From positions 4,994,501 to 5,058,500 of the forward strand of contig CM072344.1 of NCBI GenBank assembly GCA_036874045.1: 64,000 nucleotides of DNA. Reading direction: 5' to 3'. A model generated the notes under the pieces. That model was not told where the DNA came from and did not search any database. It saw nothing but the letters and a program-made list of their open reading frames with translations. This DNA comes from Cymodocea nodosa (Eukaryota; Streptophyta; Magnoliopsida; Alismatales; Cymodoceaceae). Shown here in pieces: positions 17,899-64,000 of this stretch (its first letter is position 1; every line of letters starts with the position of its first letter). The translations under genes were made by a program, and so were the position numbers.

Positions 17899-17996
17899 AG
17901 CAGTATAACTGAAGCAACTATGTATAATATAGTAAGTAGAAAAATATAAAAAGAAAAAAATGTAAGTTTAATTATAGTAAGTAGTATCGTAGAGTT

Positions 17997-18056: not shown

Positions 18057-18111
18057 CTATGTTAATTTTATCTCTACTAAATTTTATTTTATTTATACAG
18101 AATTACAACAT

Positions 18112-21475: not shown

Positions 21476-23088
21476 TGTTGAGTATTTTTGTTTTGATGAT
21501 GTGTGCTGAATGAAAATAATCATATTTGCTCAATTACTATTGCTTGTGAAAAGAAATTAAAATCATCAATTAATACAGAAAAAGCTTACTGATATAAATA
21601 CTTGTCTGTATTGGATCTGAAATTAATAACTAGTCGTTTCGTTGCATTAATTTCTCATTTAGCTAAACGTTAAGTTAACATTTGTTTTTATTGAAAAGCA
21701 TGATATGTTTTAATGTTATATCTTCTGTATCATGAATAGTGCACGTTTAGACAACTTGTTAAGTTAGAGTTTTGTTTGTATAGAGGTCACGTGAGAACTC
21801 GTTAAGTTAGAGGCTTAAAGGTTAAAATAGGTCATGTGATAACTCGTTAAGTTAGTGAGTAAAAGAAGAGACGAACTCGTTAAGTTAGTGTTATATACGT
21901 GGTGAAATTATAAGTTATGAATGTTGTATTGTATCACGTGAGGTGCACATGTTTAACTCGTTAAGTTAACATAACTAAACACGTTGAGTTGCTATATTGA
22001 ACACTAAGGCAACGCGTTAGGTTAGCGTTATAAACTTAAGTTCTTATTTTTGCACGTGGCAAAATTCTTATTATAAAAATATTTGTTTATTACTGGTTCG
22101 TTGAGTTATCATAAAACAACGGAGATGGTTCGTTGAGTTATCATAACACAACGGAGATGGTTCGTTGAATTAGCATAACACCACAGACTTAGTTCGTTGA
22201 GTTAGCTACAGTACTTTTCACGTGAAATGGCACATGAGGAACTCGTTAAGTTAGAAACGTTAAGTTATATATATACTTGTGTTACTCGTTTAGTTAACAT
22301 TAAAGTAACGACTTCTTATTACACTGATGAAAAACTTTTGGACAAGAAAGTTTATTTTGCAGGAAATTTTTCAGAGATCCAGGACTGATGATTTAAGAAA
22401 ATTTGAAATATAAATGTGGGTTAGAATGTTTGTGTTTCGATGAAGGAAAAAGAAAAGACGTGGAGAAGTGGAAAACTAGTGGTGGTTAAACGTGAAGGAT
22501 ATGCATGAAATGAAGATACAGTATAAAAGGCATAGAATTCTTGTTGATCAATTCATCCTTGCACACGAAAAGAAAAATCTTTTCAAGGATCAAACCATCC
22601 CTGCACACCAAAAGAAAAATCTTTTTCAGGGATCAAAAACGCCTTCTCGGGGAAAATCTCTCAAGTGGAAGAAAGTTCAGTGAAGCATAAAAAGGTAAGA
22701 TTTTCGTCACTGAAGATTTGAAGTATCAGAAGAAAGCAAATTCGGTGAAGCATGAAAAAACAAGATATTCGTCACTGAAGAATTGCTGAAGAAGAAAAAG
22801 AAGAAGAAGAAAGATCTCAAATAGGGAGAAAAGTTTTAAATTCCGTAAATTAGTTTTCTCTATTTGTAGTTATGAAATTGTTTAGATGATACATGATATC
22901 GAAATATAATTGCATCTACAATTTCTATGGAGAATTGAATTGTATATTGTAATTGAAACCTTGAATAAAAATGATTTTATGAAAACAATGTCTTGACTTG
23001 TTTTTGAGATTTAAAGTTTCAATTATATTTTTGAAAATATTAAAGATATGCAATTCACCCCCCTCTTGTGTAGCCATACGATCCTACA
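21476..23088 (+). repeat. S2 5' LTR (1613 bp)
   Basis: It runs from TGTTGAG to CCTACA. It carries about six copies of AACTCGTTAAGTTA or one-base variants, GTTCGTTGAGTTA repeats and several CACGTG boxes. Confidence 0.9.
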
Positions 23089-28638: not shown

Positions 28639-29889
28639 AATGCTTAAACTCCACATAAAAAAGATAAATATTATTGATGATGTTGTTCACCTCATAGATA
28701 TTATATACTTATTATAAATATCTAAAGTAATATCTAAACTGGTGCTTAAGATACTATGTATTTATTGTAAAATCATAGTAGTATCTTATTGATTTTTAGT
28801 AGTTTATCAATTTTAATAGTTTTTACGATTTTAAGTGGAAGTGTAAATGAAAAACATTAAATACTTCTAACATTCTGAAATTTTGATTAAATGTTTTCTT
28901 TGAATCAAGGAAAATGCATATGATCATGCATAAATTTGACTTAATTGATTAAACTTGTAGAATAAGTTATATGTAACTCATCTTAAACTGTTAATCAAAA
29001 GTATAAGCTTATTGAAACTGATTCATATTCTCAGTACAATCATAGAAGTAAAAAATTGTATGAGATTTGTGTTTTATTGCATCTGTATTAAATGGAATAC
29101 ATATATATTGTGCTTAAAATGAAAAGTGCTTACAAAGTAAAAATCTTTGAGAGTTTATTGATCAGTTTGATCACGAGCCTTTTGTACTTGAGCAGATAGG
29201 TATGTAAGGATTGTTGTCCTGAAAAAGGATTCTTTAAATCTGGCAACCTAAGGTCCTGATCAGATCTGGGATTGTTGACTGAAAGCTCATTACACGGGTA
29301 CATTAGAAAGCTCTTGTATGATTCAAGCTTTTCAAACTAACTTTTAAAGAAAATTATCAATAATTACTGTTTTGAAAAGAAAAAGTTGTTTCATTAATTG
29401 TAGATATCTTTGAATCGCATATAGTTTATACCAATATGACTACTGATTTATTGAATCAACATTAGTACTTTTGAAAACGTTTATTTGAGATACATTTTTT
29501 ATTCTCCTTGAATTAATCGAATTGAGTTCAAAGTTGTGTTTTGATTCATATACAGTAGGAATTGATTCTGGAAATCATTTTTGATAATGTCAGGATAACA
29601 GAAGTCTCTGAAAAGAAAATGTAAAAGTATAGTTATACTTAACATCTATTGTCACTACAAGTATATTTTGTATTTTGATTGAATATATTTGAAGTATATT
29701 TGTAGGGGGAGCATTAACAATGTCAAAAACAGATTAATATAATTTAAAATACAAATCTTAGTTAATCTGAATTAATGTCCTCTTAAAATCTTGATGAAAT
29801 AATTTAAAAAGACAAATAAACTATTTTAGATTCAAAGGACAAAATGTTCAAATAGTTTACTATGTTCTCAAGATAATGTTAAGTTTTAG
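28639..29889 (+). other. S2 post-pol spacer, shared with element X
   Basis: The part at about 28890-29630 is clearly homologous to 58440-57620 read on the minus strand, just before the X polypurine tract. Shared landmarks are AACTTGTAGAAT, GCATCTGTATTAA, GAGCCTTTTGTACTTGAG, AGATAGGTATGTAAGGATTG and GATCAGATCTGGGATTGTTG. TAGGGGGAGCATT (29702) is an internal polypurine tract. Confidence 0.7.
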
Positions 29890-30140
29890 CATGTGTGTTG
29901 TTTTCGGAACGTTTCAGTTGGAAGCATCCGAAAATTGTTTTAAGTGTACTAACTAGACGTTATGTTAGATAAGGTAATGTGTAAAACTGCCTCTAGACAG
30001 TGTTTTACTCGTTAGGTTAGTTAACTCAACGAGTTATACTTGAATATTTCGGGTACTTTGATTGAATAAGCTTTATTCAATATTTATTTTATTTCTAAAC
30101 CTGACTTCTCTTCACGTTGAGTTATACGCCTAAAAACCCT
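29890..30140 (+). promoter_or_regulatory. motif cluster before the S2 PTP ORF
   Basis: It contains CGGAACGTTTCAG, CATCCGAAAA, CTCGTTAGGTTAG, TTAACTCAACGAGTTA and CACGTTGAGTTA. It is shorter than its S1 counterpart and ends about 100 bases before ATG 30230. Confidence 0.4.
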
Positions 30141-30229: not shown

Positions 30230-32492
30230 ATGGTCTCCAAGTTCTACAAAGGTCGTGGCAAAGGAAAAGGCAAAAGTAGAAGAGATGCAAAAGGAAAAGA
30301 AATAGAGATTGATGAAGTTCCACATACTTGGTTCAAGAAAATATTTCGAGTGGACAAAAGGTTAGAAGAACTTTAGAGAGATTACTTCTTTTCTCAAGAT
30401 ATATTAGATGAAGTTAGACAAGAACTTCAACATACTGATGCAAGTATTACATACATGGGTATTCGAAGTAAATATGATATAGAATACAGAATGAAATTTG
30501 CTGAGATTGCCTTTTTGGAATAGTATGCAAAATATTTGGAAAAGGTGTAGGTTCATCAAACAGAACTCCTCAAACTCCTATAAACGGTACAAGACTACAT
30601 GCATTTGAGGAAGAGCATGAATCAGCTGTCCCTACTCCTTTATATTCAAAACAAGTAGAATCAGATATTGCTGTAGACAAAACAAAAGTTGACAGTCTTC
30701 GAAAGGCCATTGCAATAGAAAGTGTCTTAGAAGAATTAAAGTAGAAAACTTTTATGGAGCAATTTGAAAAGAAAACAGCAATACTTGAAAAGGAGAAACA
30801 AAAATGTTATAGAAGAAGGAAAGTCAGAAAAATTATGTCTAAGGAAACAAAGTCTATTGAAAAAGGAAAATCAGATGAAAATTTATTTCCAAAGGACAAT
30901 GTATGTCTAGACATTGTACCTTATTGTGTATCTGATAAACTCATCAGTTTCGAACACACTGAAACTGATGAAGATAATGAGACTTTATTTTCCCTTGCTA
31001 GAAAACTTGAGAAGAAATCCAAGTCAAATATGAGCTCAAGTTTTTCTATTAGTACAAGTCCTGATGATGCAGAAATTGACAAATCAAAGCATCAGGCACC
31101 TGACATTGAACAAGTTATTGCAGATATAATTGACAATGTTGAGGCAGTAACTAGTTCAAAGGCTGAATTGTCTCGAGTAGCAGATATTGAAATTGTTAAG
31201 ACTCCAAAAGAGCTAAAAGTTAACCAGCCTTCTACAGAATCTATAGAAGCAGAGTCTGAGAATTCACAGCATGAATCAATGGAAATATCTGTTGAACAAA
31301 ATGAACAATTACAGACAGATACACCGGTTGTAGAATTTGTGGAAAAATTGTACTCTGAACATTCTATAGAGACTGAACAAATGAATGTTGCACATATTGA
31401 CAATGTTCCTAACACTATTGATGCTGAAGAATCAAGCTTACCTGAGCAGCTTCAAGATAATATTTGGAAGAGGAACAACATGGCATTCATTTTGAAGAAG
31501 AGGTTCCTGAAGATGAATTAAACTCTGAATCACGGCTTCAGGTATCACCTTCTTTGTGTACAATATTAAAAATTCAAGGTAATGTAATTCATTTTAGATC
31601 TAAAGAAGCATTGCAAAAATACAATAATCTGATTACATGTTAGATTCTACTTGCTCATCCAATAAAATTCAGAAATTTGATGGAAATAAGATATATGTTT
31701 GAGTTTCAAGGCCTCATTAAATTCTTGCCAGTAGGAACGAAATGAAAGCAATACACAGAGATTATTACAACTTTTTATAGCAATCTGGTCAAGAATGGAA
31801 ATTTTCTGAAAACTCAAATAAATGAACAGGAGTTTATATTGTCTCCTGAGTTTATTTTTGAAGTTTTAGGATTAAAGAATGAAGGTGTTGTTACCAACAT
31901 ATTTGATATAATAAGACAACTGGAATGGAACATTCAATCTTTATCAAAAATTCCAGATGTATATTCTGAAATGAGATTAATGGAAAATATGAATGTAGAG
32001 GCAAGGTTTATTGCAAATATATTGCATGCAAATTTATTTCAGAGAGTTGGACACAATATGGAAGTCAGCAGAAGTTGTTTATATGCAACTTATAGCTTGC
32101 TGAATAGAATTCAAATCAATTGGTTTGATGTTTTCACTTCTCAACTACAGCATATGAGTTCAAAGTTATTTTATGGTGATGCTGTATGTAGACTCATTGC
32201 AAGCCAATTGAATTTATCCGACTGGCCCTCTGAAACTAAAGGCATGAGAGCATTTAGTATTAAAGATTTGCAAAAATTCCAGGCCATGCATAAACCTCAA
32301 CGACAACAACAATAACAACCTGATACAGACCATATACAACAACAACAACAAAGTTATTCAGTTCAAGCAGAACAGCAAACCCAGCTACCTCCTGACTTAG
32401 ATGCAGTGCTTAACGACATCAGAAATGATATTAGGCATCTAGGAGATAAAATATGTAATGCTATAAGTGATATACTTAGGAGGGGTCCATAA
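30230..32492 (+). pseudogene. post-pol PTP-domain ORF of S2
   Basis: It starts at ATG 30230 with a Gly/Lys/Arg-rich N-terminus (YKGRGKGKGKSRRDAKGK), then RLEEL...DYFFSQDILDEVRQEL, matching the N-terminal domain of S1. An acidic Ser/Glu-rich linker covers 30750-31520 (255 clean codons). The PTP core is at 31640-32230: PIKFRNLMEIRYMFEFQGL, FEVLGLKNEG, ARFIANILHANLFQRVGHN, INWFDVFTSQL. A Gln-rich tail ends IRHLGDKICNAISDIL. Frames shift around 30530-30750 and near 31521. There is no signal peptide or convincing membrane segment, so it is not an envelope by sequence. Function unknown. Confidence 0.72.
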
Positions 32493-32988: not shown

Positions 32989-34601
32989 TGTTGAGTATTT
33001 TTGTTTTGATGATGTGTGCTGAATGAAAATAATCATATTTGCTCAATTACTATTGCTTGTGAAGAGAAATTAAAATCATCAATTAATACAGAAAAAGCTT
33101 ACTGATATAAATACTTGTCTGTATTGGATCTGAAGTTAATACCTAGTCGTTTCGTTGCATTAATTTCTCATTTAGCTAAACGTTAAGTTAACGTGTGTTT
33201 TTATTGAAAAGCATGATATGTTTTAATGTTATATCTTCTGTATCATGAATAGTGCACGTTTAGACAACTCGTTAAGTTAGAGTTTTGTTTGTATAGAGCT
33301 CACGTGAGAACTCATTAAGTTAAAGGCTTAAAGGTTAAAATAGGTCACGTGATAACTCGTTAAGTTAGTGAGTAAAAGAAGAGACGAACTCGTTAAGTTA
33401 GTGTTATACACGTGGTGAAATTATAAGTTACGAATGTTGTATTGTATCACGTGAGGTGCACATGTTTAACTCGTTAAGTTAACATAACTAAACGCGTTGA
33501 GTTGCTATATTGAACACTAAGGCAACGCGTTAGGTTAGCGTTATAAACTTAAGTTGTTATTTTTGCACGTGGTAAAATTCTTATTATAAAAACATTTGTT
33601 TATTACTGGTTCGTTGAGTTATCATAACACAACGGAAATGGTTCGTTGAGTTATCATAACACAACGGAGATGGTTCGTTGAGATAGCGTAACACCACGGA
33701 CTTAGTTCGTTGAGTTAGCTATAGTACTTGTCATGTAAAATGGCACATGAGGAACTCATTAAGTTAGAAACGTTAAGTTATATATATACTTGTGTTACTC
33801 GTTTAGTTAACATTAAAGTAATGACTTCTTATTATACTTATGAAAAACTTTTGGACGAGAAAGTTTATTTTGCAAGAAATTTTTCATAGATCCAAGACTA
33901 ATGATTAAAGAAAATTTGAAATATAAACGTGGGTTGGAACGTGTGTGTTTCGATGGTGGAAAAAGAAAAGACGTGGAGAAGTGGAAAACTAAAAGTGGTT
34001 AAATGTGAAGGATATGCATGAAATGAAGATACAGTATAAAAGGCATAGAATTCTCGTTGATCAATTTATCCTTGCACACAAAACGAAAAATCTTTTCAAG
34101 GATCAAACCATCCTTGCACACCAAAAGAAAAATCTTTTTCAAGGATCAAAAACACCTTCTCAGGGAAAATCTCTCAAGTGGAAGAAAGTTCAGTGAAGCA
34201 TAAAAAGGTAAGATTTTCGTCACTGAAGATTTGAAGTATCAGAAGAAAGCAAATTCGGTGAAGCATGAAAAGACAAGATATTCGTCACTGAAGAATTGCT
34301 GAAGAAGAAAAAAAAGAAGAAGAAAGATCTCAAATAGGGAGAAAAGTTTTAAATTCCGTAAATTAGTTTTCTCTGTTTGTAGTTATGAAATTGTTTAGAT
34401 GATACATGATATCGAAATATAATTGCATCTACAATTTCTATGGAGAATTGAATTGTATATTGTAATTGAAACCTTGAATAAAAATGATTTTATGAAAACA
34501 ATGTCTCGACTTGTTTTTGAGATTTAAAGTTTCAATTATATTTCTGAAAATATTAAAGATACGCAATTCACCCCCCTCTTGTGTAGCCATACGATCCTAC
34601 A
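32989..34601 (+). repeat. S2 3' LTR (1613 bp)
   Basis: It has the same ends and motif content as the 5' LTR. The block 33444-33572 (TATCACGTGAGGTGCACATG ... TTAGGTTAGCG ... TTGCACGTGG) is also found, diverged, in the X LTRs (46262-46380, minus). Confidence 0.9.
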
Positions 34602-35919
34602 CCATTGTAGTAGTTGTAGAAATAGAAAATTCGAAGGAAAACTACGATTGCACGTATCATGCAGGAATTCACTCATGGAATGAAGAAGAAATCACCATCG
34701 TTGATATGAATGAAGGACCAACTAATCATTTAAGCAGAAGTAGTTATTATTGAAAGAAATATAAAAGACGAAGAAAAAGACTATGAGAATGAGGTGGAGA
34801 ATTGCGCTAACTACAGGAAGCGTCAGAAATTCCCTAAAGCTCCACCAACCACACTATTAAAATCACCAACCATCAGAAGTCTGTGAGGATACTTTCTGGA
34901 TGTCGAGTCGATTTTGAGCTAAATACAGTGATTGACAACCACTGTGAGGATTGATCGCATCATGGGAAGGGAAGCCATTTTCACCAAGCACCGACTCATA
35001 TCTCAAGAGATTGTAAAGCTTCTTGCCTTGGTTTGAGGTTGATGCTAGTATGTTGAAGAGGAGATCATCTTACAATTCTTGATTCGCGATTTTATAGGGA
35101 GAGGAGGCAAGATTGTAAGTGATTAAGTTTTTAGTGGTGTAATCACATCACATGTAGTGACGGAAGTTTTTACTATTGATAGAGATTTTTTACATTTCAC
35201 CTTTCGCTCATCTTTAGAAACATATCAAAACAAAAATACTAAAAAAAAGAAATTATCTATGTTTACATTTAGTATTAAAGTGTTGTATTATTTGTTTTGT
35301 ATCATGATTACCGTTATCATTGTTAGTATTGTGAATGTTTTATGTTTGTTTGGTTCAGAAAATAGAAAACAGTTTTATTATTTACTGAAATTGATTCGTT
35401 CTAGATACTTAAAGATTTTAATGGTTACTACTTGAAATATCTAAATGTTAGTGTTGCTTAATGTCAAATCTAATATTAACTAACATTAAAGAGCTTAATT
35501 GATGTTATTTACATTCTATGGAATTGTCCAATGGTTGGCTAAATTCCTTTGTAAATAGTAGTATTTAACTGGAAAGGTAGGCTCGTGGAGTTAACTTAAG
35601 TCCACGAGGTTAGTCTGTTGGGTTAACAATAACTCCACAAACTAAGTCTGTTGTGTTAACTGTAACTCAACGGAGTGCTTAACTAACACATATAAACTCT
35701 AATATAAAAATCGAAATAGTACATAATTCTTACTCAATCACTGTGAGATCGACTTGTACTTGCACACAAATACAATATACATAGTGCACTTGTAGTTAAA
35801 ATACAAATTGGACTTAATATCTAATTTGTGTGAAAGGTTGTTTGTTTACTTCTAAAAGAATTTATTAATATAAGCATAAAAATAAATCAAACAAGTTCTG
35901 ATTTAACTTTTCACAAACA
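34602..35919 (+). repeat. element X LTR fragment (plus orientation)
   Basis: It reads as the reverse complement of 18320-19690. It contains GATGAATGAAGG, CATGGGAAGGGAAGCC, GAATTGTCCAATGGTTGGC and the GTGGAGTTAACTTAAGTCCACG motif group (35585). The left end is lost at the S2 LTR. The right end CACAAACA is degenerate and abuts Athila pol. Confidence 0.75.
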
Positions 35920-36300
35920 TCCAAACAAGCAGCATCATATTCCTTCTAGTAATTCTTCCCACTTTTTGGCAATTGGTACAATTCTTAACAAAAGAGTATG
36001 CAACCTTATGCAATGTGGGCCAGAAAAAACCACATTGAAGAGCTTTTGCCATCATCTTATTAGGATTAAGATGACCACTAGCAGGTTGGTCATGACAAAA
36101 AGATACCACACTATGAATCTCCATATCTGGAATGCATCTCCTTAAAATCAAATCAAGGCCAAATTTATATAGATAGGGATCATCCCAATAAATCTCCCTA
36201 ACCCTTGCTAAAAATCTCTTAATCTCTTGCCTTGACCAATTACTAGGTACTCATTTTGTCACCAAGTAATTTACAATATCTGCAAACCAAGGGACTAGAG
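35920..36300 (-). pseudogene. pol: Athila integrase zinc-binding region (element Z)
   Basis: The minus strand shows LILRRCIPDMEI, FCHDQPASGHL, KALQCGFFWPTLH and CTNCQKVGRITRRN: the gypsy H2C2 integrase finger with its ligands present. Sequence homology stops after RRNMM, at the junction with the X LTR fragment. The catalytic core is missing. Confidence 0.85.
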
Positions 36301-36730
36301 TGATTGCCATTAACTATTCATCTGGGAATGAATCGTTAATGGGTAGCTCCCCTTGGGGTGTGACAATACAAGACAAATGGTCAGTAACTACGTTCTCGCA
36401 TCCTTTCTTATCTTTTATCTCCAAATCAAATTCTTGCAAAAGAAGAATCCACCTAACTAATCTAGCTTTAGCATCCTTCTTTGCTAGTAAAAACTTGATG
36501 GCAGAGTGATCTATAAAAATAACAACCTTAGAGACTAACAAATAAGACCTAAATTTCTCAAAAGCAAAAACTATAGCTAGAAATTCTTTTTCTGTAACCG
36601 TATAGTTCATTTGGGCTACATTTAGAGTTTTAGTGGCATAATAGTTCACCCATGGCATTTTATCAATCCTTTGTCTCAACACAACACCAATCGCATAATC
36701 TGATGAATCACACATTAACTCGAATAGTTG
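36301..36730 (-). pseudogene. pol: Athila RNase H (element Z)
   Basis: The fragment [55 protein letters not shown], then DHLSCI is gypsy RNase H with the connection to integrase. It is 133 codons without a stop. A stop at 36314 separates it from the integrase part. Confidence 0.88.
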
Positions 36731-38164
36731 AGATCAATCAGGTGGATACATAATAGGTGTAGATGTGAGGATTCCTTTAAGCTTATCAAAGGCATCTTGA
36801 CATTTCTTAGAAAATTCAAACTTATGATCCTTTGATAATAGGTTTGTTAAAGGTTAGGCAATCTTACTAAAATCTTTAATAAACCTTCGATAAAATCCAG
36901 CATGACCTAAAAATGCTCTTATATCCTTAACAAACTTAGGAGGTGGTAGGTTGGCTATCAAATCTACTTTGGCTTTATCTACCTTCAACCCATTCTTAGA
37001 AACAACATGACCCAACACAATTCCTTATAGCACCATGAAGTGGCATTTCTCCCAATTTAAAACTAACTATTTTTCTATACACCTCCTTAAAACTAACTCT
37101 AAATTCCCAAGACAAAAATCGAAAGAAGAACCTATCACAGAAAATTCATCCATAAAAATTTCCAAATACCTATCAATCATGTCTGAAATGATTCTAGTCA
37201 TACATCTTTGGAATGTTGCAGGAGCATTGCACAAACTAAAGGGCATGCATCGGAATGCAAAAGTACCAAAGGGACATGTGAATGTGGTCTTCTCTTGGTC
37301 ACAAATGTGACAGTAATTTGGTTATATCCAAAATAACCATCTAGAAAATAATAGTATTCTTGCTCAACTAACTTCTCTAACATTTGATCCATAAAAGGCA
37401 AGGGGAAATGGTCTTTCCTAGTGGTAGTATTAAGTTTCCTATAGTCAATGCACACCCGCCATCCTATTTGCACTCTAGTAGGAACTAGTTCATGATTACT
37501 ATTCTCCACAACAATGATACCAGACTTCTTTGGGACGACTTGAACAAGACTAACCCAAATGCTGTCTGAAATTGGGTAAATGATATCATGATCTAGCTAC
37601 TTAATAATTTCTTTCTTAACCACATCCTTTATATTAGGATTTAGTCTTCTCTATGGGATCCTAGATGGAGTAATATTACTATCTAAGTGAATTCTATGTT
37701 GGCACAGACTAGGACTAATTCCTTTAATGTCAGCCATGGTCCAACCAATGGCTTCCTTATACTTCCTAAGAACCACTAATAACTTCTCCTCTTGCTCACT
37801 AGAAAGGTGAGAAGATAAAATGATTAGCAAGGTGTTCTCCTTTCCCAAATAGGCATACTTAAGGTCTTGAGGCAAGGGTTTTAGTTTAAGTAAAGGTGAT
37901 TCCTCAACTGATGGTTTCTTCACTTCTCCTAATTCTCTTACTAACGACTCTATGAAATTTACCTCACCTAAGTCAGGAATACTAGCTAAAGTAACCTCAT
38001 CCTCTAATGGTGGAACTTCTTCATTATCTGTTATACTAAACTCATCTACCTCCTCACCTTCTTTTACGACATCCATGAAGCTCACAATAAAGTCCTCATT
38101 AAATGCATTTTCAATCTCAGGGTGAGTTTTAAAAATGTTTAATTCAACCTTAGCGTCACCAAAG
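36731..38164 (-). pseudogene. pol: Athila reverse transcriptase (element Z)
   Basis: Upstream linker LPQDLKYAYLG and AIGWTMADIKGISPSLC (38085-37651) is followed by LVPTRVQIGWRVCIDYRKLN, DHFPLPFMDQMLEKL and YYFLDGY.GYNQI (37509-37198). After that the frame shifts. Later, FMDEFSV at about 37145 stands where RT normally has FMDD, so the second catalytic Asp is Glu. Several TAG/TGA stops are present. The upstream end is broken by the solo LTR at 38165. Confidence 0.88.
38160..38164. repeat. target duplication CAAAG (left of solo LTR)
   Basis: CAAAG stands before the solo LTR and CATAG after it (40064-40068): a 5-bp duplication with one mismatch. Confidence 0.55.
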
Positions 38165-43985: not shown

Positions 43986-45300
43986 TGTAACGCTTTTATG
44001 TGTTGTTAAATTAAATGGCAAAAGTGCAAATTTTACATTTATAATTGTAAGCGCACGGTACCCATTGTAATAAGCATGTGCAAGTATGGGTCGAATCTAC
44101 AAGGAGTTTGTCTTAATTAATTTTATTGAAATGATTGTCTGATAAAATATCTACACAATTTAGCTCATAATTAAAACTCTAATTACATGATATTAATATA
44201 CAAATTTCGTAACACACTTAAGGATTAAAAGATTACCCTAAAATCCAATTAATTTCTAAGGTAAAGGCATAAGATACTCAAGAGATCAATGAGTTTTGAT
44301 CTTGGAATCACAAAATTTAAGCCTGAATTTTAACTCTCATCACTTCCAACCTAGACATGTAAAAATCCAAAATAAATATTTATTGAAAAGATCCTCGAGA
44401 TATCTTTAAAATGGTAGTGATTTCATGGATTAAGTCAACTTAAAATGCTGGCAACATCTTATTTAAGAAAGGGGTGCAGACTGTTATGGAAACTTTCTAA
44501 AAACACACCTTTAGTGCAAAAATCAAATCTCTGTCAAATCTCCATGAAATACTACAAAATAAATAGACTTTGAAAGTAGATTCGTAATACTAATAAGAAA
44601 AATTTACAGAACCAAATTTTAGTAGGTACACAATGCAAGCAATGCTCAGGCGTCAAGCTCAAAATTGGCACTCGATAAAGATTCAAAACTGTTGAGACCT
44701 TTAGAAAATAAAATTGAAAACCTTTGAAAACATTCTAAAAAATACTAAAACTTTGCAAACATATTCTACACTCACAATACTTACAAAATGAAATAAAAAA
44801 TGAGATTAAGAAGTGACAAACAAGTAGATACAATTAGAACAAAGGCTACAAACATTCTGGAAATCTAGGAAATGAAAAACTGCATTCACAAAATATACAA
44901 TCACATTCATTCACACTATACACATGATACGAAACCATTCTTTATATAAACCAACGTCAAAACAGTATATAAAACATAATATAAAACATTTAAATCAAAG
45001 ATTCATGCATGAAATTTCATTCCTCAACATTCTCAAACCATACCCATACATATTGAATTTCAGAATATAAAAACTAGTATGAGAATCTCTCCTTTCCATC
45101 ATACCTTTAAGTCTTCCACTTTTCTTCAAGCATTTAAACCTTATTTGATGATGAACCACTTTGATCCGCTCCACTACAAGGCTATCACCACTTGTAGATC
45201 ATGTTCAAAGGGAACTGCCTATGATTGCTTTGAAGAAAAGAGGTTGCATGTCCTCTTGCTTGCTTCAAAAGTCACAACTTTTGCTTTAACATCAAAAAAA
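43986..45300 (-). repeat. Athila Z 5' LTR, 3' portion
   Basis: The LTR end (minus) is CGTTACA. The box GCGCACGGTACCCATTG ... GGGTCGAATCTACAAGG (44050-44105), typical of Athila-group LTR ends, is present. No gene. The LTR is broken at 45301 by an X LTR fragment and probably resumes at 47148. Confidence 0.7.
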
Positions 45301-47147
45301 GAGGAATTCGGCCAACCATTGGGCGATTCCACAGATTGTAAATAACATCAATTAAACTCTTTAATGTTAGTTAACATTGGATTTATCATTAAGCAATACT
45401 AACATTCAGATAATTCAAATAGTAACCATTAAAATTTTTAAGTCTTTTGAACAAACCAATTTCAATAAACTATAAAACTAAAATAAACATAAAACAATCA
45501 CAACACTGACAAAGAATACATTAATCATGATACAACACAAACAATACAACACTCAAATACAACATACAAACATAGATAAATTGTTTTTGGTATTTTTGTT
45601 TTAATATGAACATGGAAATGGGCGAAAGGTGAAATGTAAAGTAATCTCACTTAATAGTAAATACTTCCGACACTACTTGCAACACGATTACACCATTGAA
45701 AATTAAACCACTTACAATTCTGTCTCCTCTCCCTATAGAATCGCGAGTCCAGAATTGCAAGATGATCTCCTCTTCAGCATACAGGCATCAACCCGAAGCC
45801 AAGGCTAAAAGCTTTACAATCTCCTGAAATATGAGTCGGCGCTTAGTGAAAATGGCTTCTCTTCCCACGACGCGATCACTCCTCACAGTAGTTGTCAAGC
45901 GCTGTGTTTGGCTTGGAATCGACCCGACATCAGGCAAGTATCCTCACAGACCTCCGATGGTTGGTGATTATGGTGGTGATGATGATGGTTGGTGTGGAAC
46001 TTCAAAGAATTGCGACACTCATCCTCCTCTACACACGCTATCCACCCATCAATCACACCCTTTTTCTTTTTTCTTCTTTTCTTTTATATTTCTTTAGTAG
46101 TAACTACTTCTGCTTGAATGGTCGGTTGGATTTCCTTCATTCATATCAACGACGATGCTTTCTTCTCCTTGCACGATATGTGCAAACGTGGTTTTTCTCT
46201 TCCAACTGTTTGTTCCTACAACCACTACAGTTGCATATTAGAAAATAGATTTAACTATAAAACACGTGCAATAAAGAAATAAGCCGCTAACATAACGCAT
46301 TACCTTAGTGTGTATTCATGTAACTTAACGCATACAGTTATGCTAACTTAACGAGTTAAACATGTGCATCTCACGTGATATACTAAAGCATTTAAATTCA
46401 ACACATGTATAAATTTAACTATCCGATGCTTAGGTGCTTTTCAGATACTTATAAATTTAACTATCCGATGCTCAAATGCATTTCGGATAGTTACAAATAA
46501 CTCACCGATATATAACTTAAGTAAATCTATTAGATCTCGACACGTGTCAGCAGTAGTTTAATCATAAAATAACATTTCGGAGAGTTACAGGTCTAACTAT
46601 CCGATGCTTAAATGCATTTCGGATAGTTAGAAATAACTCACCAAAAATCCACTTAAGTCACTTTCCCAGAACATGACACGTGTCCTCAGCTATTTTATAA
46701 ATAAAAAGAGATTTTAGAGAGTTACAGGGATAACTATCCGATGCCTAGCTGCAATTTCGGATAGTTATAGATAACTCATCGAAAGTTCACTTAAGTCATT
46801 CATTATGGTTTCGACACGTGTACTTCAAGAAATAATAAAATATTCTCTCAAAACATAACTGTTCGGCAATTTAAACATAACTATCTGATACATGTTCGGT
46901 CTGTTAAACATAACTATCCGAAATATTAGAAAATTCAGATACTTAAGAATTTCACAGCTTGTAACTTACCGACAATTCATAAATATACTAAATTAACATT
47001 AATTCCCCTAATTTAAGCAGATTCTTCAATTAAAGCACATAACAGTGCAATTATAACATAATGGCTTAATTCTCATATGATAAGCTAAATATTATGCAAT
47101 TAACCATCATTTAATCGTTAATAATATGCACTTTTTAATTCTAAACG
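45301..47147 (-). repeat. element X LTR fragment (minus) in the Athila LTR
   Basis: It matches 18718-20121 and 55580-57381, from GAGGAATTCGGCC to TTCTAAAC. It lacks the terminal 400 bases of the LTR. It carries the richest hairpin array: three CTAACTATCCGATGC ... GCATTTCGGATAGTTA pairs between 46400 and 46770, with ACACGTGTC boxes. Confidence 0.85.
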
Positions 47148-47844: not shown

Positions 47845-48998
47845 TTTACAAATACCATAGCTAGAAACTCCTTCTCAGTAATAGTGTAATTTAATTGAGC
47901 TCCAATCAATGTCTTGCTAGCATAATAGATTACCTATGGTAATTTATCCACTCGCTGACCAAGTATCACTCCCAATGCATAATCTGAGGCATCAGCCATA
48001 AGTTCAAATGATAAATTCCAATTAGGAGAGTATACTATGGGTACTATTGTTAAAGCTCACTTTAATTGCTCAAAGGCTTCTTGACAATGCTCAAAAAACT
48101 CAAAAAGTTGGTCCTTTACAAGCAATGAAGTAAGCAGACGGGCAATCTTGCTAAAATCTTTGATAAATCTACAATAAAATCCAACATGTCCAAGAAAAGC
48201 TCTAATATCCTTTACAAATTTTGGAGTTGGAAGGTTTGTAGTCAGATCAATCTTAGCTTTGTCTACTTCTAAATCCCTCTTTGATATAATATGGCCAAGT
48301 ACAACTCCTTTTTGTACCATAAAGTGATATTTTTCCGAATTCAATATAAGGTCATATTCAATACATCTCTGTAGTACCAACTCTAAATGATGTAAAAATT
48401 CTTCGAAAGAGAGTTCTGATATAGAAAAATCATACATGAATATCTCCAAAAATCTATCAATCATATCAGAAAAGATTCCTATCATACACTTTTGAAAAGT
48501 CAGGTGTATTGCATAATTCGAATGGCATTCACTTAAATGCAAATGTTCTAAAAGGACAGGTGAACTTTGTCTTATCTTGGTCCTCAAGTGCAACAAGGAT
48601 TTGATTGTATCTTGAATAACCATCTAGAAAATAATAGAACTATTGCCCTACCAATTTCTCTAACATTTAATCCATGAAGGGCAATGAAAAGTGGTCTTTC
48701 TAGGTGGCCTTATTCAATTTTCTATAATCAATGCAAACTCTCCACCTTGTTTGCACATGAGTTGGCACTAATTCATTATGAATGTTTTCTACTACAGTTA
48801 TTCTAGATTTCTTTGGTAGCACATGAATAGGTGAAACCCAAGTACTATCTGAAATAGCAAAGATGATACCATGATCTAGCCACTTTTGGATCTCTTTTCT
48901 TACTACGTCACTCATATTGGGATTTAGTCTTCTTTGAGGATCCCTTGAAGGTCTAACATCCTCATTTACTCTAATCTTATGACAATCAACTTTGTATG
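47845..48998 (-). pseudogene. pol: second Athila pol fragment: RT and part of RNase H
   Basis: RT start: NPNMSDVVRKEIQKWLDHG, ISDSTWVSPIHVLPKK, NELVPTHVQTRWRVCIDYRKLN (48915-48700). After a shift: DRFLEIFMYDFSI at about 48435, where the first catalytic Asp of the usual FMDD is Tyr. Then GHIISKRDLEVDKAKIDL and AFLGHVGFYCRFIKDFSKIA (48057-48623 block). RNase H begins (ADASDYALGVILGQR, LNYTITEKEFLAMVF) and breaks off at about 47845. It is non-functional, and separate from element Z because both have RT. Confidence 0.87.
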
Positions 48999-55179: not shown

Positions 55180-57381
55180 TGTTTGGATTTTCCTAGCACG
55201 ACACTAGAAAAAATTTTGATTTGTTACTTCTGTTTTTACTTAGTTAATTTAGCTTTATGCCTATTCTTTTTCTTTTAGAAGTAAACAAACAACCTTTAAT
55301 ACAATTTAGATATTAATTCCAATTTGTACTTTAACTTCAAGTGCACAGTGTCTATTGTATCAGTGTGCAAGTATAGGTCGATCCCATAGGGAATTGGTTA
55401 AGAACTAAGAACTATTCGTTTGTTAACAATCAAATTTGTATCTTCACTAAGCCCTCCATTGAATTATAGTTAACTCAACGGACAAAGTTCGTTGAGTTAT
55501 GGCTAACTCAATGGTCTAACCTCGTGGACTTAAGTTAACTCCACGAACCTATCTTTTCTTTTTAAATATTGCTATTTACAGAGGAATTCGACCAACCATT
55601 AGGCGATTCCACAGATTGTAAATAACATCAATTAAGCTATTTAATGTTAGTGAACATTGGATTTATCATTAAGCATACTAACATTCAGATAATTCAAACA
55701 GTAACCATTAAAATCTTTAAGTCTTTTGAATGAACCAATTTCAGTAAACTGTAAAACTAAAACAAACATAAAACAACTACAACACTGACAAAGATAACAT
55801 TAATCACGATACATCACAAACAATACAACACTCAAATTCAATATACAAGCACAAATAAATTGTTTTTGGTATTTTTGTTTTAATATGAACATGGAAATGG
55901 GCGAAAGGTGAAATGTAAAGTAATCTCACTCGATAGTAAATACTTTTGTCTCTACTTGCAACGCGATTACACTACTAAAAATTAAACCACTTACAATTAT
56001 GTCTCCTCTCCCTATAGAATCGTGAGTCCAGAATTGCAAGATGATCTCCTCTTCAACATACAAGCATCAACCCAAAGCCAAAGCTAAAAGCTTTAAGATC
56101 TCTTGAAATATGAGTCGGTGCTTGGTGAAAATGGCTTCCCTTCCCACGACGCGATCACTCCTCACAGTGGTTGTCAGGCACTGTGTTTGGCTCGAAATCG
56201 ACTTGACATCAAGAAAGTATTCTCATAGACCTTCGATGGTTGGTGATTGTGGTGGTGGTAGCGATGGTTGGTGTGGTACTTTGGAGAATTACCGATACTA
56301 CCTACAGAAAGCTCGGTGCTCCTCCTCTGTATACACTGGCCGTCCATCGATCACACCCTTTTCTTCTTTTTCTTCTTTTCTTTTATATTTCTTCAGTAGT
56401 AACTACTTCTGCTTAAATGGTCGGTTGGATTTCCTTTATTCATATCAACGGTGATGCATTCTTCTCCCTGCGCGATACATGCAAACGTGGTTTTTCTTCC
56501 AACTATCTTGTTCCTACAACCGCTATAGTGGCATATTAGAAAATAAATAGTCCGTGGAGTTACAGATAACTCAATGGACTTTCTTTGTTGATTTAACTAT
56601 AAAACACGTGCATAAATTTAACTATCCGATGCTCAGGTGCATTTCGGATACTTATAAACTTAACTATCTAATGCTCAGGTGCATTTCGGATAGTTACAGA
56701 TAACTCACCAATATATAACTTAAGTAAATCTACTAGATCTCGACACGTGTCAGTAGCAGTTTAATAATAAAATAAACATTTCGGAGAGTTACAGGTCAAC
56801 TATCTAATGCCTAGACACATTTCGGATAGTTAGAGATAACTCACCAAAAATCCACTTAAGTCACTTTCCCAGAACATGACATGTGTCCACAGCTATTTTA
56901 TAAATAAAAAGATATTTCGGAGAGTTACACATCTAACTATCCGATGCCCAACTGCAATTTCGGATAGTTAGAGATAACTCATCGAAATTTCACTTAAGTC
57001 ATGCATTATGGTTTTGACACGTGTACTTCAGGAAATAATAAAATATTCTTTCAAAACATAACTGTTCAGCAATTTAAACATAACTATCCGACATGTTCGG
57101 TCTGTTAAACATAACTGTCCGAAATATGTTCGGTATGTTAAACATAATTGTCTGAAATATCAAAAAATTCAGATACTTAAGAATTTCATAGCCTGCAACT
57201 TACCGACAGTTCAGAAATGTACTAAATTAACATTAATTCTCCAAAATTAAGTAGTAATTCTAATTAAATCATATAACAGTGCAATTATAACATAATGGCT
57301 TAATTCTCATATGATAAGCTAAATATTATGCAATTAAACATCATTTAACCGTTAATAATATGCACTTTTTCATTCTAAACA
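55180..57381 (-). repeat. element X 3' LTR (2202 bp)
   Basis: Ends are TGTTTGG / CTAAACA, an inverted repeat TGTTT..AAACA. The R/U5 side carries the GTGCACAGTGTCTATTG box (55342) and TAACTCAACGGAC palindromes (55470). The U3 side (56600-57150) holds a hairpin array with ACACGTGTC boxes. Confidence 0.83.
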
Positions 57382-57396
57382 CTTCCCCCATACCTA
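57382..57396 (-). other. polypurine tract of element X
   Basis: On the minus strand GGTATGGGGGAAG directly precedes the LTR start TGTTTAG. The same occurs at 20122-20136. Confidence 0.8.
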
Positions 57397-59353
57397 AATT
57401 TTGCTAGTCCCTTAGCAAACTAAGATCTAATTAATTGGTCTTTCAAAAAGTACTAGAACTAATTCTTCTTTTTTTCTTTTTTTCTTCTGTTCAACATAAG
57501 AATATATATTCTATATTTTTTAGTAATCAACCTGCAAATATACTTAGAATATATGTAAATTACATACAAAGTATATCATCATCACATAGGTGTTAATTAT
57601 ATTAACGTTTGTTCTTCTTTTCATCATCTGTCATCCTGAATTTTCCAATAAGATTTCTAGAAGAAATTTCAACAACATACGAATCAAAGTACAATCCAAT
57701 TCAATATGATTAAGACAAGTAGAATAAAGAATTGTATATCCATTAAACAACTTCAAAAGTCAATTCTAGATTTATATTACAGCAATTCTAGATAACAGAA
57801 AATATACTCGATTCATAAGATATTTGTATTTCACAAAACACTTGTATCTTTTCAAAACAGTATATGTATTTTTTTTTTCTTTTTTTTCTTTTTTTGTACT
57901 TTAAAAGTTAATTTGACAAGCTTGAATCATACAAGAGCTTTCTAATGTACCCATGTAACAAGCTTTCAGTCAACAATCCCAGATCTGATCAGGATCTTAG
58001 GTTGCCAAATTTCAAGAGTCCTTTTTCAGGTCAACAATCCTTACATACCTATCTACTCAAGTACAAAAGGCTCATGATCAAACAAGTCAATAAACTCTCA
58101 AATTTTCCTCTCTCTTTTTTTTTTTCAATCAAAATACAAACATAAAACAAAACATTAATCACATACTGTATATGTATGTATTTCATTAATACAGATGCAG
58201 CAAAACACCAATCTCATATAGTCCTGCTTCTATCATTTACTGAAAATATGAATCCATAACAATAAGCTCATACTTTTTCTATAGTTTAATAAGATCTACA
58301 CATAAATCATTCTACAAGTTCAATCAGTCAAATTAAATGTATCTTTAATCATATGTGTTTCATTTAATCTAAAATTCACATCTCAGCTCCTTCAGGACTT
58401 CAGATAATTTACTGACTTTTCATTAAGCATTCTGATTTCATTTTAAAATTGTGAAACTTTTAAACTCATGAAATTCAGAAAAAACATAAGATACTATATC
58501 TAGATTTACATAAATAGTAAATTCTATAGCATCTTATATAGCCTTCTAAATATAACATTCAAGTAGTTACAATTTATAAAAATTTTACAGTCTCAATTAT
58601 TAGATAGTTACAACAAGTTCATAAAAATTTTCAATTTCCACAAAACTTTGCAATACCATTTTAATTCCTTTAATTAACAAACTTACATTGCTGTTACTTT
58701 AATTACCTCCCCCCCATACCTACATTTTGCATTGTCCTCAATGTAAAAGATTTGACAATAAGTACAGTAATTGTAGTAGGCATGAATACAGTTTTGTTGA
58801 TTTAAAATTCAGGATAAGTAATTGGTTACATACCTTGTTTCGTTTGTATCTCCTTCTACATATTCCGATTTTTGATTCTAGAAAACATTTCATTCATAGA
58901 TAAATGCAGAATATAAAACAAAATAACATTTAACAGATATTAATAAATCAATGTCTTATGTGGAACCCAAACTCCTATGCCATTGGTGGCTCATAAGCAA
59001 GCCAGTTGGTTTCCCAAAACAGATACCAACAAACTGGATTGATATTTTATTTTTATTTTTTTCTTTTATATAATAAAATGAAAACTACAAATTTTTCTAA
59101 AAATAAACGTAGAATACACACAACATTAAACACACAAAATCACAACTTAAGAACATGATTGAAAAGTAGGAACAAATGGAATAAATGTATTAGTCCAAGC
59201 AAACTTTTTAGGCATAGTTCTTCTTGCTATTAATTCTATTTTAATGTAGTTCTTGTTCCTTCTTAATTTGTAAACATGTAATATATTAGAAATTCCAAAT
59301 ACAAGTGTATTACCATTAATGATATGAAATGCAGAAAGGGATCCTTTTTGGTT
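57397..59353 (-). other. element X 3' untranslated region, partly SIRE-related
   Basis: The part at 57620-58440 matches the S2 post-pol spacer (29630-28890). At 58700-58745 (minus) ACATTGAGGACAATGC with GGTATGGGGGGGAGG is the Athila/Tat-type pre-polypurine box. T-rich runs lie at 57867-57896 and 58105-58125. No ORF supported. Confidence 0.65.
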
Positions 59354-60286
59354 CTAGGGTAATGTAGCAGTTTCTATTTCTACATCTATTTCAATATATT
59401 CCTCTTCCCACTTCCATTCATTAATGTCTTTCATAATCCATATTTGAAATTTTATCAATTCATCCCACCATCTTATCAGACATAAAGTAGGATCATCTTC
59501 TTTATTATAACACACTCCTATTTGAATTTTATTAAATTCTATAGATGGTGGTTTAGCTATTTCTCTTGCTATAGGTAAAATTTCTATATTTTCATCATAG
59601 CTGTCTATGCTCACTATGTATAAATCAGATCCAAATGCTATTGATATATCTGTGACTAGATATATATATCCATCAAGTATGACATGTGTTTGGTTAATTA
59701 ATGATTTTTGTCCTAGATATATCATAATATTTTCATTCCAAGATCTATTCAGAAAATTATACACACTTAAGCATAAATCTTCACCCCAATTTCCTATAGG
59801 TCTCCAATAATATAATTTTTCAGGAATTGCAGAATTTTTATCAGAAAATATTAAAACTGACCCACAATTTACAGTTGGTACTTCAAATCTATTAGGTGTT
59901 CCTATATTCCATTCTTCTCCTGTTATAGGATTTCTTATCAAAATATTAGGTAATAATAAACTTGCAAACCTTGGTCTCGTCCTGTATATGATTAATCATT
60001 CATCTATCCCCATAATATGATTTATTCCTTCTAATGTATTGGGTGGAATTCCAGTAGTTTCTTCCATGGCAAGATATTCATGGTTAATTAAACTACGATT
60101 AAATGACCTCCATATGAATCCATCTCTAATCTTAGTCATTTTTGCAGCTTGTAGTCCTTGAAAATATTTTTCTTCAATACAGTCTTTAATTTCTTTTGAT
60201 ACATAACATAGTCTGCACAGATCTTTAGCTGATAAATTACTTAGTACTTCCCTTAGTGCATCCAACGATAATTGCATCAATTCCAT
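59354..60286 (-). pseudogene. F-box protein gene carried by element X, one stop
   Basis: About 310 codons in one frame, starting ATG 60286 (MELMQLSLDALREVL). F-box at residues 5-42: LSLDALREVLSNLSAKDLCR, YVSKEIKDCIEEKYF. A C-terminal domain follows with IRNPITGEEWNIGTP, LYYWRPIGNWGED, HVILDGYIYLVTD, DLYIVSIDSYDENIEILPI, resembling the repeat region of plant F-box proteins that binds substrates. The only interruption is TGA at 59998-59996. There is no intron. In SCF ligases such a protein would tether a target to Skp1-Cullin. The length and single stop make recent coding function plausible. Which host F-box family it came from is not identifiable here. Confidence 0.78.
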
Positions 60287-60349
60287 TTGTCGATTCTGTA
60301 TAACACAAACAAAAATTTAGCAAAGACAAAAATTAACATAACTACTGCA

Positions 60350-60420
60350 CACCCTCATGGAGTTAAGGCATAACTCAACGGACTAAGTTCGTTGAGTTAA
60401 GGACTAACTCTACGATACTA
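60350..60420 (-). promoter_or_regulatory. GAGTTA palindrome before the F-box gene
   Basis: TAACTCAACGGACTAAG followed by TTCGTTGAGTTAAGG gives a near-perfect dyad about 80 bases upstream of the F-box ATG. Confidence 0.45.
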
Positions 60421-60475
60421 TTAACTATAAATAAAAACATATATATACATAGATAGTTGCTTCAGATATGCTGCT

Positions 60476-61819
60476 TCATTCAGCTACCCTCCCAGAAGAG
60501 GTATCAATTTCATTAACAGTTCTATTAATAGGGTTAGGTATTGCTTGTATTGGCAATCCTCTAGTAAGTCTAACTTCCATTGGTTCCTTCTATTTAAGTG
60601 GTATATTTCTATTCTGATTTTGAATTGCAGCATTTCCAAATACAAAATCTAAACGATTGTTTAATTGTTGGATTATCTTTTCTAATTTCTCTATTCTAGA
60701 TCTTTGTTCAATTAATGCCTCATAACTTATATTCTTCTCATTTACATTTTCTCCTCCCTGGAAATTGTTGTTTCTCCAAGATAAATTTGGGTGATTTCTC
60801 CAATTAGGATTATAAGAATTTCCCAAGTTATCTCTCTGGTTTCTAGCATAAATAATATCTAAATCATTTATGTTTGCATTCTTTTCTGCTAGCTTTTGAT
60901 TTAATGATAACTCTTCTATTTTCTTTGTTAATTCAGTTAATTTCACCTCAAGCATAGTACTTGAATCTATTTCATGCATTCCTCTTGGCAATATTTTTTT
61001 ATCTACAATAGCTTCAGCCGAGTTTTCCCACTATGTAGTTCTTTTTGCAAAGTTTTCTAAATATGCCCATGCTTCTTCACTACATAACTTTAAAAATCCA
61101 TTTTGACAAGTAGATTCTAATAAAGATTTTGTTGAAACATCTATGCCTTCATAAATTATACCTATTAATTGTGCTTTACTCATTGCATGATGTGGACATT
61201 GAGTCAGTAAACCTTTAAATCTTTCAAAATATTTCCAGAATGATTCACCCTATTTTTGGCTACACATTAATATTTCTTTTTTCTTTTTAATCATTTGATG
61301 AGTTGGATAATAGTTTTCCAGAAAAATAGAGCAAAATTCAGTCCATGTAGAAATTGAATCAGGCGACAGAATATATAACCATCTCTTAGCTATGTCTTTT
61401 AAAGAAAAAGGGATATATCTAAGTTTAATAGCATCTATACTCATGTTCGGCATTTTCATCATTTGACAAACTTCATTAAATTCTCTAAGGAAATAATAGG
61501 CATCATCTCTTTCTAATCCATGAAAATGTGGCAATTGACTAATATAATTAAATTTCAGTTCAAACCTATCTCCCTCAAAGTTTGGCAATCGAATACATGA
61601 AGGTTCATCAACTAATTCAAGATACAGAATCTCTCCTAATGATTTTTCTACTAGAGTAGCCATCTCTACGTTCTCTTTTAAAAAAAGGTTAGCTACACCC
61701 CAAGGAATTCCGTTAAAGTTCAGTTCAGAAATTTTTTCAGTACTCCTCTACGATGAAAATTCCTGGATAGGTGTTCTTACTAATCATTTAGTGCTTAGAG
61801 AACGGGTCCATGTGCTCAT
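60476..61819 (-). pseudogene. gag: Athila-type Gag of element X (minus copy)
   Basis: The start at ATG 61819 matches 16553 (MS.WT), with early stops. A clean block of 137 codons (61663-61250) holds RLPNFEGDRFELKFNYISQL, FHGLERDDAYYFLREFNEV, IPFSLKDIAKRWLY and WTEFCSIFLENYYPTHQ. A second block of 133 codons (60991-60590) holds coiled LTELTKKIEELSLNQKL, NPNWRNHPNLSWRNNN and a C-terminal helix. It ends at TGA 60478-60476. There is no zinc knuckle. The Gag is complete in outline and better kept than at 16553-17898. Confidence 0.88.
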
Positions 61820-62758
61820 AAATAAATAGTAGAAGATTAATTACATACCAGTCTGAAGCTTTCCATTCAATAAATATTTGTTGTCGGATGAAGTCAAATC
61901 AGTTGCTTCTCCTTCTAGTTCCTCCAACGCATTCTCCTTTCTTTTAAAAGTGCTGGTAACTCATAAATAACATTCTATTTTATATATATACTGCACATCC
62001 ATAAAGTGAATAAATCTCGTTGCAAGGACGTGTCTTGCAACGTGCATTGTGGTTCCTGTTTTTATGGGTACATGTACCACTACTAATTTCAAATTTTGGT
62101 AACCACTAAACTGACGAAGTTTCATTCGTGGTTAAAAGAATAACTGTTCTACTTAATCCATGAACTAACCTCGTTGAGTTACAGATAACTCAACGGAACA
62201 TAGTCGGTTACTATTGCTAACTCCACAGACTAACTTCGTTGAGTTACAAATAACTCAACAGAGTGACCTTATATTATATTACTGACCTTGTGGAGTTACG
62301 TTTAACTCAACGAACTAAGTTCGTTGAGTTAACACTTAGCAACCTCTAAGTTTTATTCTCGAAAGTTCCTCTCTGCTTTTTCTTTTTTTTTCATTCTGTT
62401 AACTGAAATAAAGTTAAATCTATGTCATTAATGCATCATTCTAATCAAAATTCATTTAAATCTGAACATTATATAAAGATTTAACTTGTAGATTATTTTA
62501 TGTTACGTAGAATTTACATTTTACCTTGCAACATGTAGAAATTTTTAAGCATTTTTCCTGTCATTTAGCAAATTGTAAATCTATTAAACATTCATTCATA
62601 AAGTTCCACAAATTATATATAACATTCAATACATTCCATTCATTTCACATTCAAAATACGTACGAAAATTGCATCTGAAAAATTATATTCATTAATATGA
62701 ATCAATTTACAGTATAAGTACATCATACAATTTTATACAAGTAGACGAACAATACAAG
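61820..62758 (-). other. element X interior between PTP and gag
   Basis: Non-coding. The cluster at 62155-62340 has four GTTGAGTTA..TAACTCAACG dyads, one of them TAACTCAACGAACTAAG then TTCGTTGAGTTAACA. It also shows what the site at 4803 looked like before S1 inserted. Confidence 0.65.
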
Positions 62759-64000
62759 TTAATCTCTATTCCTAAGTTCATCTACTTCCTTTTAGAGTTT
62801 TTCTAACTGAAGTTCTAATTGATTAATTCTTTCTACAGCTCTTGTAATTCCTTGAGAAGGTTGTAAATTTCTGTATTCTTTCACTGAAATGGTTCTAGAT
62901 CTAATCCTTTTTTGATGCCTATTTCGTGAAATCAATACAATCCACCATCAGCATTGGAATCAAATCTCCATAAAACAATTTTTTCTTTACTATTTTCAGC
63001 TTGGAGATAAAAACTGTAGACCAATTTATTTGAATCCTTTTTACAACTGCAAACATGGCCCATTTGACAAATTGACTTAATTCTATGTCATGGCCTTGTC
63101 GTTGATAGACATTCTTAATCAAAATGTTGGCTACCATGTGTGCTTTACCATTTAAATGCTTCAATCTATTTAATAAAGGCACACTAGGATTGATAGCTAA
63201 ACAATCCTTAATTTGCTGTTTTGTCCACTCGACTGCAGTTGTGTCTTCCAAAATTTTTAGTCCTTCATTCTTTAATCCAAAAATGTTGTGGAGAAGCTCT
63301 GGTGTTATCTGTACATCTGCTTCCTCCACATTGGAAATTAATCCTCCTTCACCTTCTCTTAAATTTGCATAGAAACAGGGTACTAGATTCTCATATATTA
63401 CATACCCTCTTTCTTGAGAAATAAATTTCAGTAGACCTTGGAATTCAAATAAATCTTTGATTTCTTGCATTCCATCCCAATTTACTGGTCTACTGTAAAT
63501 AATATTGTAACCCCTAATTTCTTGGTATTTAGTATAAGCTTCCTGACTCCAAAAATGTACTTCATTCAAAATTGTTGTTTTAGTCGGTTAGGAATGTGAC
63601 TTTGTTGTTCCAAAGGGGTTTGTTCTTGATATTCCTCTTCTATAGCCTGCATTTGAACATTCTCTACAGATTCCTGAATTTTTTCTTTTGCTTTTATCTG
63701 TGGTGGTGAGTCGGCAGAACTCTCCACTCTATCTTGAATTCTCTCCATAAATTGCTGAAGAGTTTCTTACTCTTTAGTGGAATCTGTAAAGTTATTTTTG
63801 TCCAAATGGCTTCTTTCAGCCTCTTCATTTTCTACTCTTTCTTCTTCCTCCTAACTACCAATCTGTTCTATCACTATTCTTTCTGATTCTGTAACAGATT
63901 GGGATGGAGTCATGGGCAATTCAGTTTCTGCCCTAATTTCTGTTTCTTCTTGTTGTACAAGCTGCAGACTAATTTCAGCCTATTTTTCTTCTTGTCTTTG
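62759..64000 (-). pseudogene. PTP-domain ORF of element X (minus copy, N-terminus outside)
   Basis: The ORF enters from beyond the window with an acidic Gln/Glu-rich region, then the PTP core in 216 clean codons (63569-62919): EVHFWSQEAYTKYQEIRGYN, GLLKFISQERGYVIYENLVP, ITPELLHNIFGLKNEG, AHMVANILIKNVYQRQGHDI, FVKWAMFAVVKRIQINWSTV. The C-terminal coil ends at the stop 62761-62759. It aligns with 3700-4590 and, more distantly, with the post-pol ORFs of S1 and S2. Role unknown. Confidence 0.75.

Follow-up and report, generated by a model that had tools for sequence, protein, structure and literature searches.

Results

A probable LTR element with PTP, gag and F-box genes

The 64,000-nucleotide stretch of Cymodocea nodosa contig CM072344.1 analysed here (positions 4,994,501 to 5,058,500; hereafter the window) carries on its minus strand, from 64000 to 55180, an element (X1) in which a PTP-like open reading frame (ORF), a Gag ORF, an F-box gene, an untranslated stretch, a polypurine tract (PPT) and a long terminal repeat (LTR) follow one another (Table 1). 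This order had been proposed in a preliminary description, which began the element at 55180, the last base of the LTR, and it is borne out by profile matches, the PPT and the LTR borders. A second copy on the plus strand, X2, repeats this order with similar spacing until it is cut. The PTP, gag and F-box genes ahead of a PPT and an LTR probably constitute a mobile unit, which we call X, and no pol region was recovered from either copy.

The F-box domain scores 35.6 bits against PF00646, for which the curated cut-off is 20.5. The frame that begins at 60286 contains 2 stops in 379 codons, far below the mean of 34.7 and the minimum of 15 among 2000 shuffles, so that it is not a product of chance. 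Its base composition was determined alongside that of gag: GC at the three codon positions is 0.36, 0.34 and 0.18 in the F-box gene and 0.38, 0.31 and 0.20 in gag, and A content is 0.392 and 0.402, respectively (LTR, 0.329). Ranked by pyrimidine content, the tract ending in ATACAG that precedes the F-box start codon is third of 204 YAG sites in X1 and second of 81 in X2, with ties. An acceptor-like tract at this place in both copies is what expression of the gene from a spliced RNA would predict, and this mode of expression is reported for barley Bagy2 (PMC7264820). The C-terminal part of the protein matches FBA_3 only at chance level (E 0.46), and its structure model (mean pLDDT 37.9) is too poor to use. 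Searched against PDB sequences, the N-terminal piece gave one chance-level match (E 0.78).

Gag is identified by the Retrotrans_gag profile, which does not tell lineages apart, and the PTP-like ORF matches Transposase_32 over 159 residues with 26.8 bits, below the cut-off of 45; a structure model of PTP (mean pLDDT 35.3) is also too poor to use. A search with a Gag piece yielded 25 candidates and two matches, of which one, in a 511-bp ENA contig, has 91% identity across 68% of the query. Neither PTP nor gag was found in viral contigs.

Both copies are damaged. X1 has in-frame stops in gag and the F-box gene and a broken N-terminal part of PTP. In X2, PTP (stretch 3323-4788 aligned to X1) and gag both contain stops and stand apart, with some 11 kb of inserted sequence (about 4801-15752) between them, and the F-box gene is cut. 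The remainder of that gene was found nowhere else in the window by tblastn, and within the window X2 lacks both an F-box end and an LTR of its own. The plus-strand series that the preliminary description placed at 2389-18319 therefore stands for PTP, gag and the start of the F-box gene, and fails for the F-box end, the PPT and the LTR.

Table 1. Features of the two X copies and of X-type LTRs in the window
Feature	Position	Strand	Evidence
X1, broken N-terminal extension of PTP	63570-64000	-	stops and a frame change
X1, PTP-like ORF, 216 aa open	62919-63569	-	Transposase_32, E 5.7e-6
X1, gag, three in-frame stops (382 codons)	60509-61663	-	Retrotrans_gag, E 7e-8; stop columns
X1, splice-acceptor-like T-rich tract before F-box ATG	60296-60320	-	present in both copies
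X1, F-box gene, 379 codons, two in-frame stops	59147-60286	-	PF00646, E 7.5e-9; stops compared with shuffles
X1, 3' untranslated stretch, 1,765 bp, no ORF of at least 120 aa	57382-59146	-	ORF list
X1, PPT GTATGGGGGAAG, directly 5' of LTR A	57382-57393	-	same sequence precedes LTR B at 20133
X1, LTR A (3' LTR), 2202 bp	55180-57381	-	start as in copy D; end as in copy B and 1-63
X2, PTP, broken	2389 to about 4620	+	73.9% aa identity over 203 residues
X2, gag, broken	16709-17870	+	86% aa identity over 137 residues
X2, first 69 F-box codons, no stop, cut by LTR B	18112-18318	+	77% aa identity
LTR B, opposite in orientation to X2, interrupting its F-box gene	18320-20121	-	X-type PPT and untranslated stretch on to 20505
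LTR C, lacking its 5' part next to a copia LTR	34602-35927	+	alignment as far as 35896, final 31 bp by eye
LTR D, lacking its 3' part	45300-47146	-	LTR alignment
LTR piece E	10714-11217	+	LTR alignment
Last 63 bp of an X-type LTR	1-63	+	89% identity, E 7e-17

LTRs and the insertion border

LTR A runs from TGTTTAG to CCAAACA and thus has the TG and CA ends of LTR retrotransposons, with a PPT on its 5' side. Copy D supports the start, the resemblance between the two setting in at the second base, and copy B and the piece at the window start support the end, as they cease to match at the same base; copy C agrees by eye. An alternative start at the first PPT-like site, near 58710, was ruled out, as copy D starts at the second site. 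LTRs A and B are taken as 3' LTRs because each is preceded by a PPT and the two share the last 386 bp upstream (92.7% identity). Pairwise identities among copies A to D range from 0.78 to 0.91. Five X LTRs had been counted previously; several do lie close together, and we find six copies or pieces in the 64 kb. The exact PPT-LTR junction had no match in the viral and genome contigs searched.

The sequence beyond LTR A reads CCAAG and then continues as an interrupted PTP gene of another element (55202-54880), a relative of which is whole at about 13590 (GGCCAAGCACG). Because the LTR border meets a gene that is interrupted here and whole in another copy, X1 looks like an insertion into a PTP gene. 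A single CCAAG is seen, the 5' end of X1 lying beyond the window, and the other half of the gene with a second CCAAG would be expected beyond 64000.

A motif resembling a primer-binding site (PBS) lies within the X LTR end, at 55197-55214 (minus strand) and within 1-63 (plus strand), and is weak when set against shuffles (0.038 for A, 0.41 for B and 0.011 at the window start). It is perhaps a fossil primer site; as a mark of 5' LTRs it was rejected, since A and B are preceded by a PPT.

The 10-mer CGTTGAGTTA occurs 29 times in the window against 0.07 expected, often in inverted pairs, at 2076-2151, 15984-16137, 18594-18650, 19764, 21119-22204, 30022-30124, 33612-33717, 35663, 55471-55499, 60371-60399 and 62172-62331. 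It is found in X LTRs, X spacers and the LTRs of a copia element, as a short motif common to these families.

No pol found in X, and OTA-type remains nearby

The preliminary description saw no pol between gag and LTR, and our searches agree: tblastn with four pol-region pieces from the window (812-1399, 37651-38085, 36314-36715 and 48057-48623) gave zero matches in X1, as far as the window shows it, and none in the pieces of X2. Two of the four queries have a Pfam match, one to RNase H (E 8.3e-27) and one to reverse transcriptase (E 5.3e-5, below the cut-off). The pieces 37651-38085 and 812-1399 matched no Pfam family, in the latter case at E 0.01. The frame at 812-1399 (plus strand, 195 aa) precedes X2 on that strand, separated from it by other sequence, and we take it to be the end of an Athila-type integrase. 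Elsewhere, at 43979-43962 on the minus strand, a primer-site-like sequence, TGGCACCATTGCCAGGGA, stands behind an LTR-like end (0.00 expected); it has three mismatches to the Athila-type PBS, and may be the start of another OTA-type element. With gag present and pol absent, X resembles pol-less Athila elements, again as far as the window shows X1. Its placement in the OTA (Athila/Tat) group and the term Athila-type rest on context, since neither pol nor a PBS of X is in view.

Selection and decay

Selection was examined between X1 and X2 only, using NG86 estimates of the ratio of nonsynonymous to synonymous change (omega) with bootstrap ranges. Codons with gaps were left out, as were, for NG86, codons with stops or with no stop-free path. 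A neutral model was built from three spacer stretches of the two copies, with X1 as the starting sequence, and run 3,000 times. Omega is 0.25 for PTP (0.16-0.39), and two parts of gag give 0.27 (0.13-0.56) and 0.36 (0.21-0.65). Both genes have fewer changed amino acids than neutrality predicts: none of the 3,000 runs was as low for PTP, and P is 0.0043 and 0.0003 for the gag parts. PTP and gag have been under purifying selection in this lineage.

Mismatched C/T sites, as a share of C-bearing sites, amount to 0.55 in CG, 0.52 in CHG and 0.22 in CHH contexts. A bias of C/T decay toward CG and CHG is expected of methylated, silenced plant elements, and both copies may have been silenced and then decayed by C-to-T change. 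T in X2 opposite C in X1 is commoner than the reverse (15 to 9 in CG, 43 to 13 in CHG), and decay therefore seems to have gone further in X2. Stops occupy 22 alignment columns, 6 of them in X1 and 19 in X2, with 3 shared. Common in-frame stops were considered as proof of a broken master copy or of read-through and rejected, given that 3 of 22 columns are shared and independence is not rejected. The 13 CAG/TAG columns have TAG in both copies at 2, in one at 9 and in neither at 2 (Fisher p 0.53, a weak test with 13 columns).

Surrounding elements

The window is AT-rich (28-36% GC in 2-kb steps) and packed with nested LTR elements, some of which share parts with X. Relatives of PTP lie behind the pol of two copia elements (12968-13803 and 31581-32219), with 33-39% amino acid identity to the PTP of X1; about 1 kb behind a copia pol (28759-29720) matches the 3' untranslated stretch of X (58516-57517) at 70%; and LTR piece E, which matches part of the X LTR, sits behind another copia pol. 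According to PMC6317226, SIRE copia elements typically have additional 3' ORFs (74%). The cargo looks modular, exchanged between copia and gypsy elements of one genome.

A copia element of about 13 kb is bounded by an LTR pair at 21476-23088 and 32989-34601 (96% identity). At 1956-2076 on the minus strand is a 5S-rRNA-like stretch (E 0.009; 24.2 bits, where the gathering score is 38), perhaps from a Cassandra-type element. Two 239-bp copies with 97% identity (4803-5041 and 5111-5349) adjoin TGGTATCAGAGC, which we take to be a tRNA-Met primer-like site, and form a small TRIM-like element.

Discussion

X shares its basic plan with elements that have been described. Pol-less Athila elements of Arabidopsis consist of LTRs, gag and one further ORF, and many families are non-autonomous; their gag and env-like ORFs are reported to be under purifying selection, with omega of about 0.2-0.4, and the authors consider that these elements are mobilised in trans, at least in part (Marco and Marin 2008, PMC2410132). 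Like these, X combines gag and a third ORF with the absence of pol. It differs in having a PTP ORF before gag and in its third ORF, which is env-like in Athila and holds an F-box in X; the term F-box does not appear in PMC2410132. X is also similar to OTA elements in general, which are long, commonly have extra ORFs and contain large non-coding stretches (Neumann et al. 2019, PMC6317226). The extra domains listed there are the plant mobile domain, Transposase_28 and Athila ORF-1, and F-box is absent from the main text. Other plant gypsy elements with an added gene include Retand elements with antisense TRP28 ORFs, some of them non-autonomous (PMC11963269), and orchid elements with an AlkB-like domain (PMC9289625). 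In both cases the domain is another than in X (in Retand the ORF is also antisense), and F-box is not mentioned in either source. Among the matches listed, no open-licence title or abstract opening reported an LTR element that includes an F-box gene; listed papers such as PMC8764390 and PMC3225836 contain both terms. Since pol-less elements with gag and a third ORF, and OTA elements with extra ORFs, have been described (PMC2410132, PMC6317226), the F-box gene is the new part of X, and the pol-less plan was already known.

We favour a view that places X among the non-autonomous LTR retrotransposons of the plant OTA (Athila/Tat) group and gives it a Gag of its own and an F-box gene; as an explanation of the whole, we consider the case for it evenly balanced. 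On the best reading the F-box gene sits where env-like ORFs sit in relatives. RNA of X would be packaged by its own Gag, then copied and integrated by the pol enzymes of an autonomous relative, and movement in trans is the probable course. The F-box protein, made from a spliced RNA, could attach by its F-box to the SCF ubiquitin ligase of the host, and its C-terminal part might send a host protein that limits the element, for example a silencing factor, to destruction.

Several results weigh against this interpretation. The window contains no 5' LTR, LTR pair or PBS of X, and the link from F-box gene to LTR is seen in X1 only, because the X2 gene is cut and adjoins LTR B, another insertion in the opposite orientation. 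The integrase-like frame at 812-1399 was left out of X2 as a matter of judgement and could belong to it. No homologue of the F-box protein was found at E 0.001, either with the C-terminal ORF alone or with the whole frame and X at its stops, and the target of the protein is a guess. Omega for the F-box piece, 0.42 (0.16-1.23), is not significant and is lower in a wrong frame (0.32); the neutral model is borderline, with 16 changed codons against 19.8 (P 0.06); and in none of the four stretches is the number of new stops significantly low (P 0.13-0.54). The sign of purifying selection on this piece is only suggestive, as the overlap of 69 codons is too short to decide the matter. What had been called a stable three-gene cargo is thus constrained in PTP and gag, with selection on the F-box gene not significant over this overlap in two copies. 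That selection has kept the F-box gene is possible, and we lean somewhat toward doubting it.

The F-box gene could instead be a passenger, picked up once from the host and copied along without a role, so that PTP and Gag are all that matters. Capture of genes by plant LTR elements is common, with 672 genes in rice and 1,343 in sorghum (PMC3726574), and the lack of significant selection on the F-box piece fits as well. The damage to the gene in X1, however, does not exceed that to gag (2 stops in 379 codons, 3 in 382 in gag), the third-position GC and A content of the F-box gene are close to those of gag, and the 69 codons of X2 have no new stop where 1.9 would be expected under neutrality (P 0.13). 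We regard a passenger as unlikely.

Somewhat less likely still is descent of X1 and X2 from an autonomous Athila-type element with an F-box gene, pol having been deleted in their common line and pol-bearing copies surviving elsewhere. OTA-type pol pieces do occur in the window, one of them near LTR D, and the putative integrase frame stands upstream of X2. No pol piece in the window is joined to an F-box gene, however, and in both copies gag leads to the F-box gene over a short, related spacer, so that any loss of pol would precede the split of X1 and X2. It is highly improbable that the F-box gene is a host gene beside an element, or that the copies are duplicates of one locus and nothing moved: independent insertion has no direct proof, the 5' end of X1 and both ends of X2 being absent, but in X1 the gene has gag on one side and PPT/LTR on the other, all in one orientation, in X2 it follows gag, and the LTR border of X1 meets a PTP gene that is interrupted there and complete in another copy.

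If X is a non-autonomous retrotransposon with its own F-box gene, viruses offer a parallel. Polerovirus P0 and nanovirus Clink are parasite-encoded F-box proteins that use the host SCF ligase (PMC3588083), their likeness to X being an analogy of working only. Silencing factors are a reasonable first target, because the host F-box protein FBW2 regulates ARGONAUTE1 (PMC2914764). By this analogy X might represent a retroelement lineage in which a spliced F-box accessory in the env position turns the ubiquitin machinery against silencing or restriction factors, on a pol-less partner that supplies Gag; in this full form we think the proposal unlikely.

It is an open question why pol-less elements retain coding genes, and for most extra ORFs of plant LTR elements no role is known. 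The biochemical role of an F-box is definite, that of an SCF adaptor, and so the gene gives a testable idea of how an element may act on its host. If selection on the F-box gene were found across copies, X would be a plant retroelement with an accessory gene like those of retroviruses.

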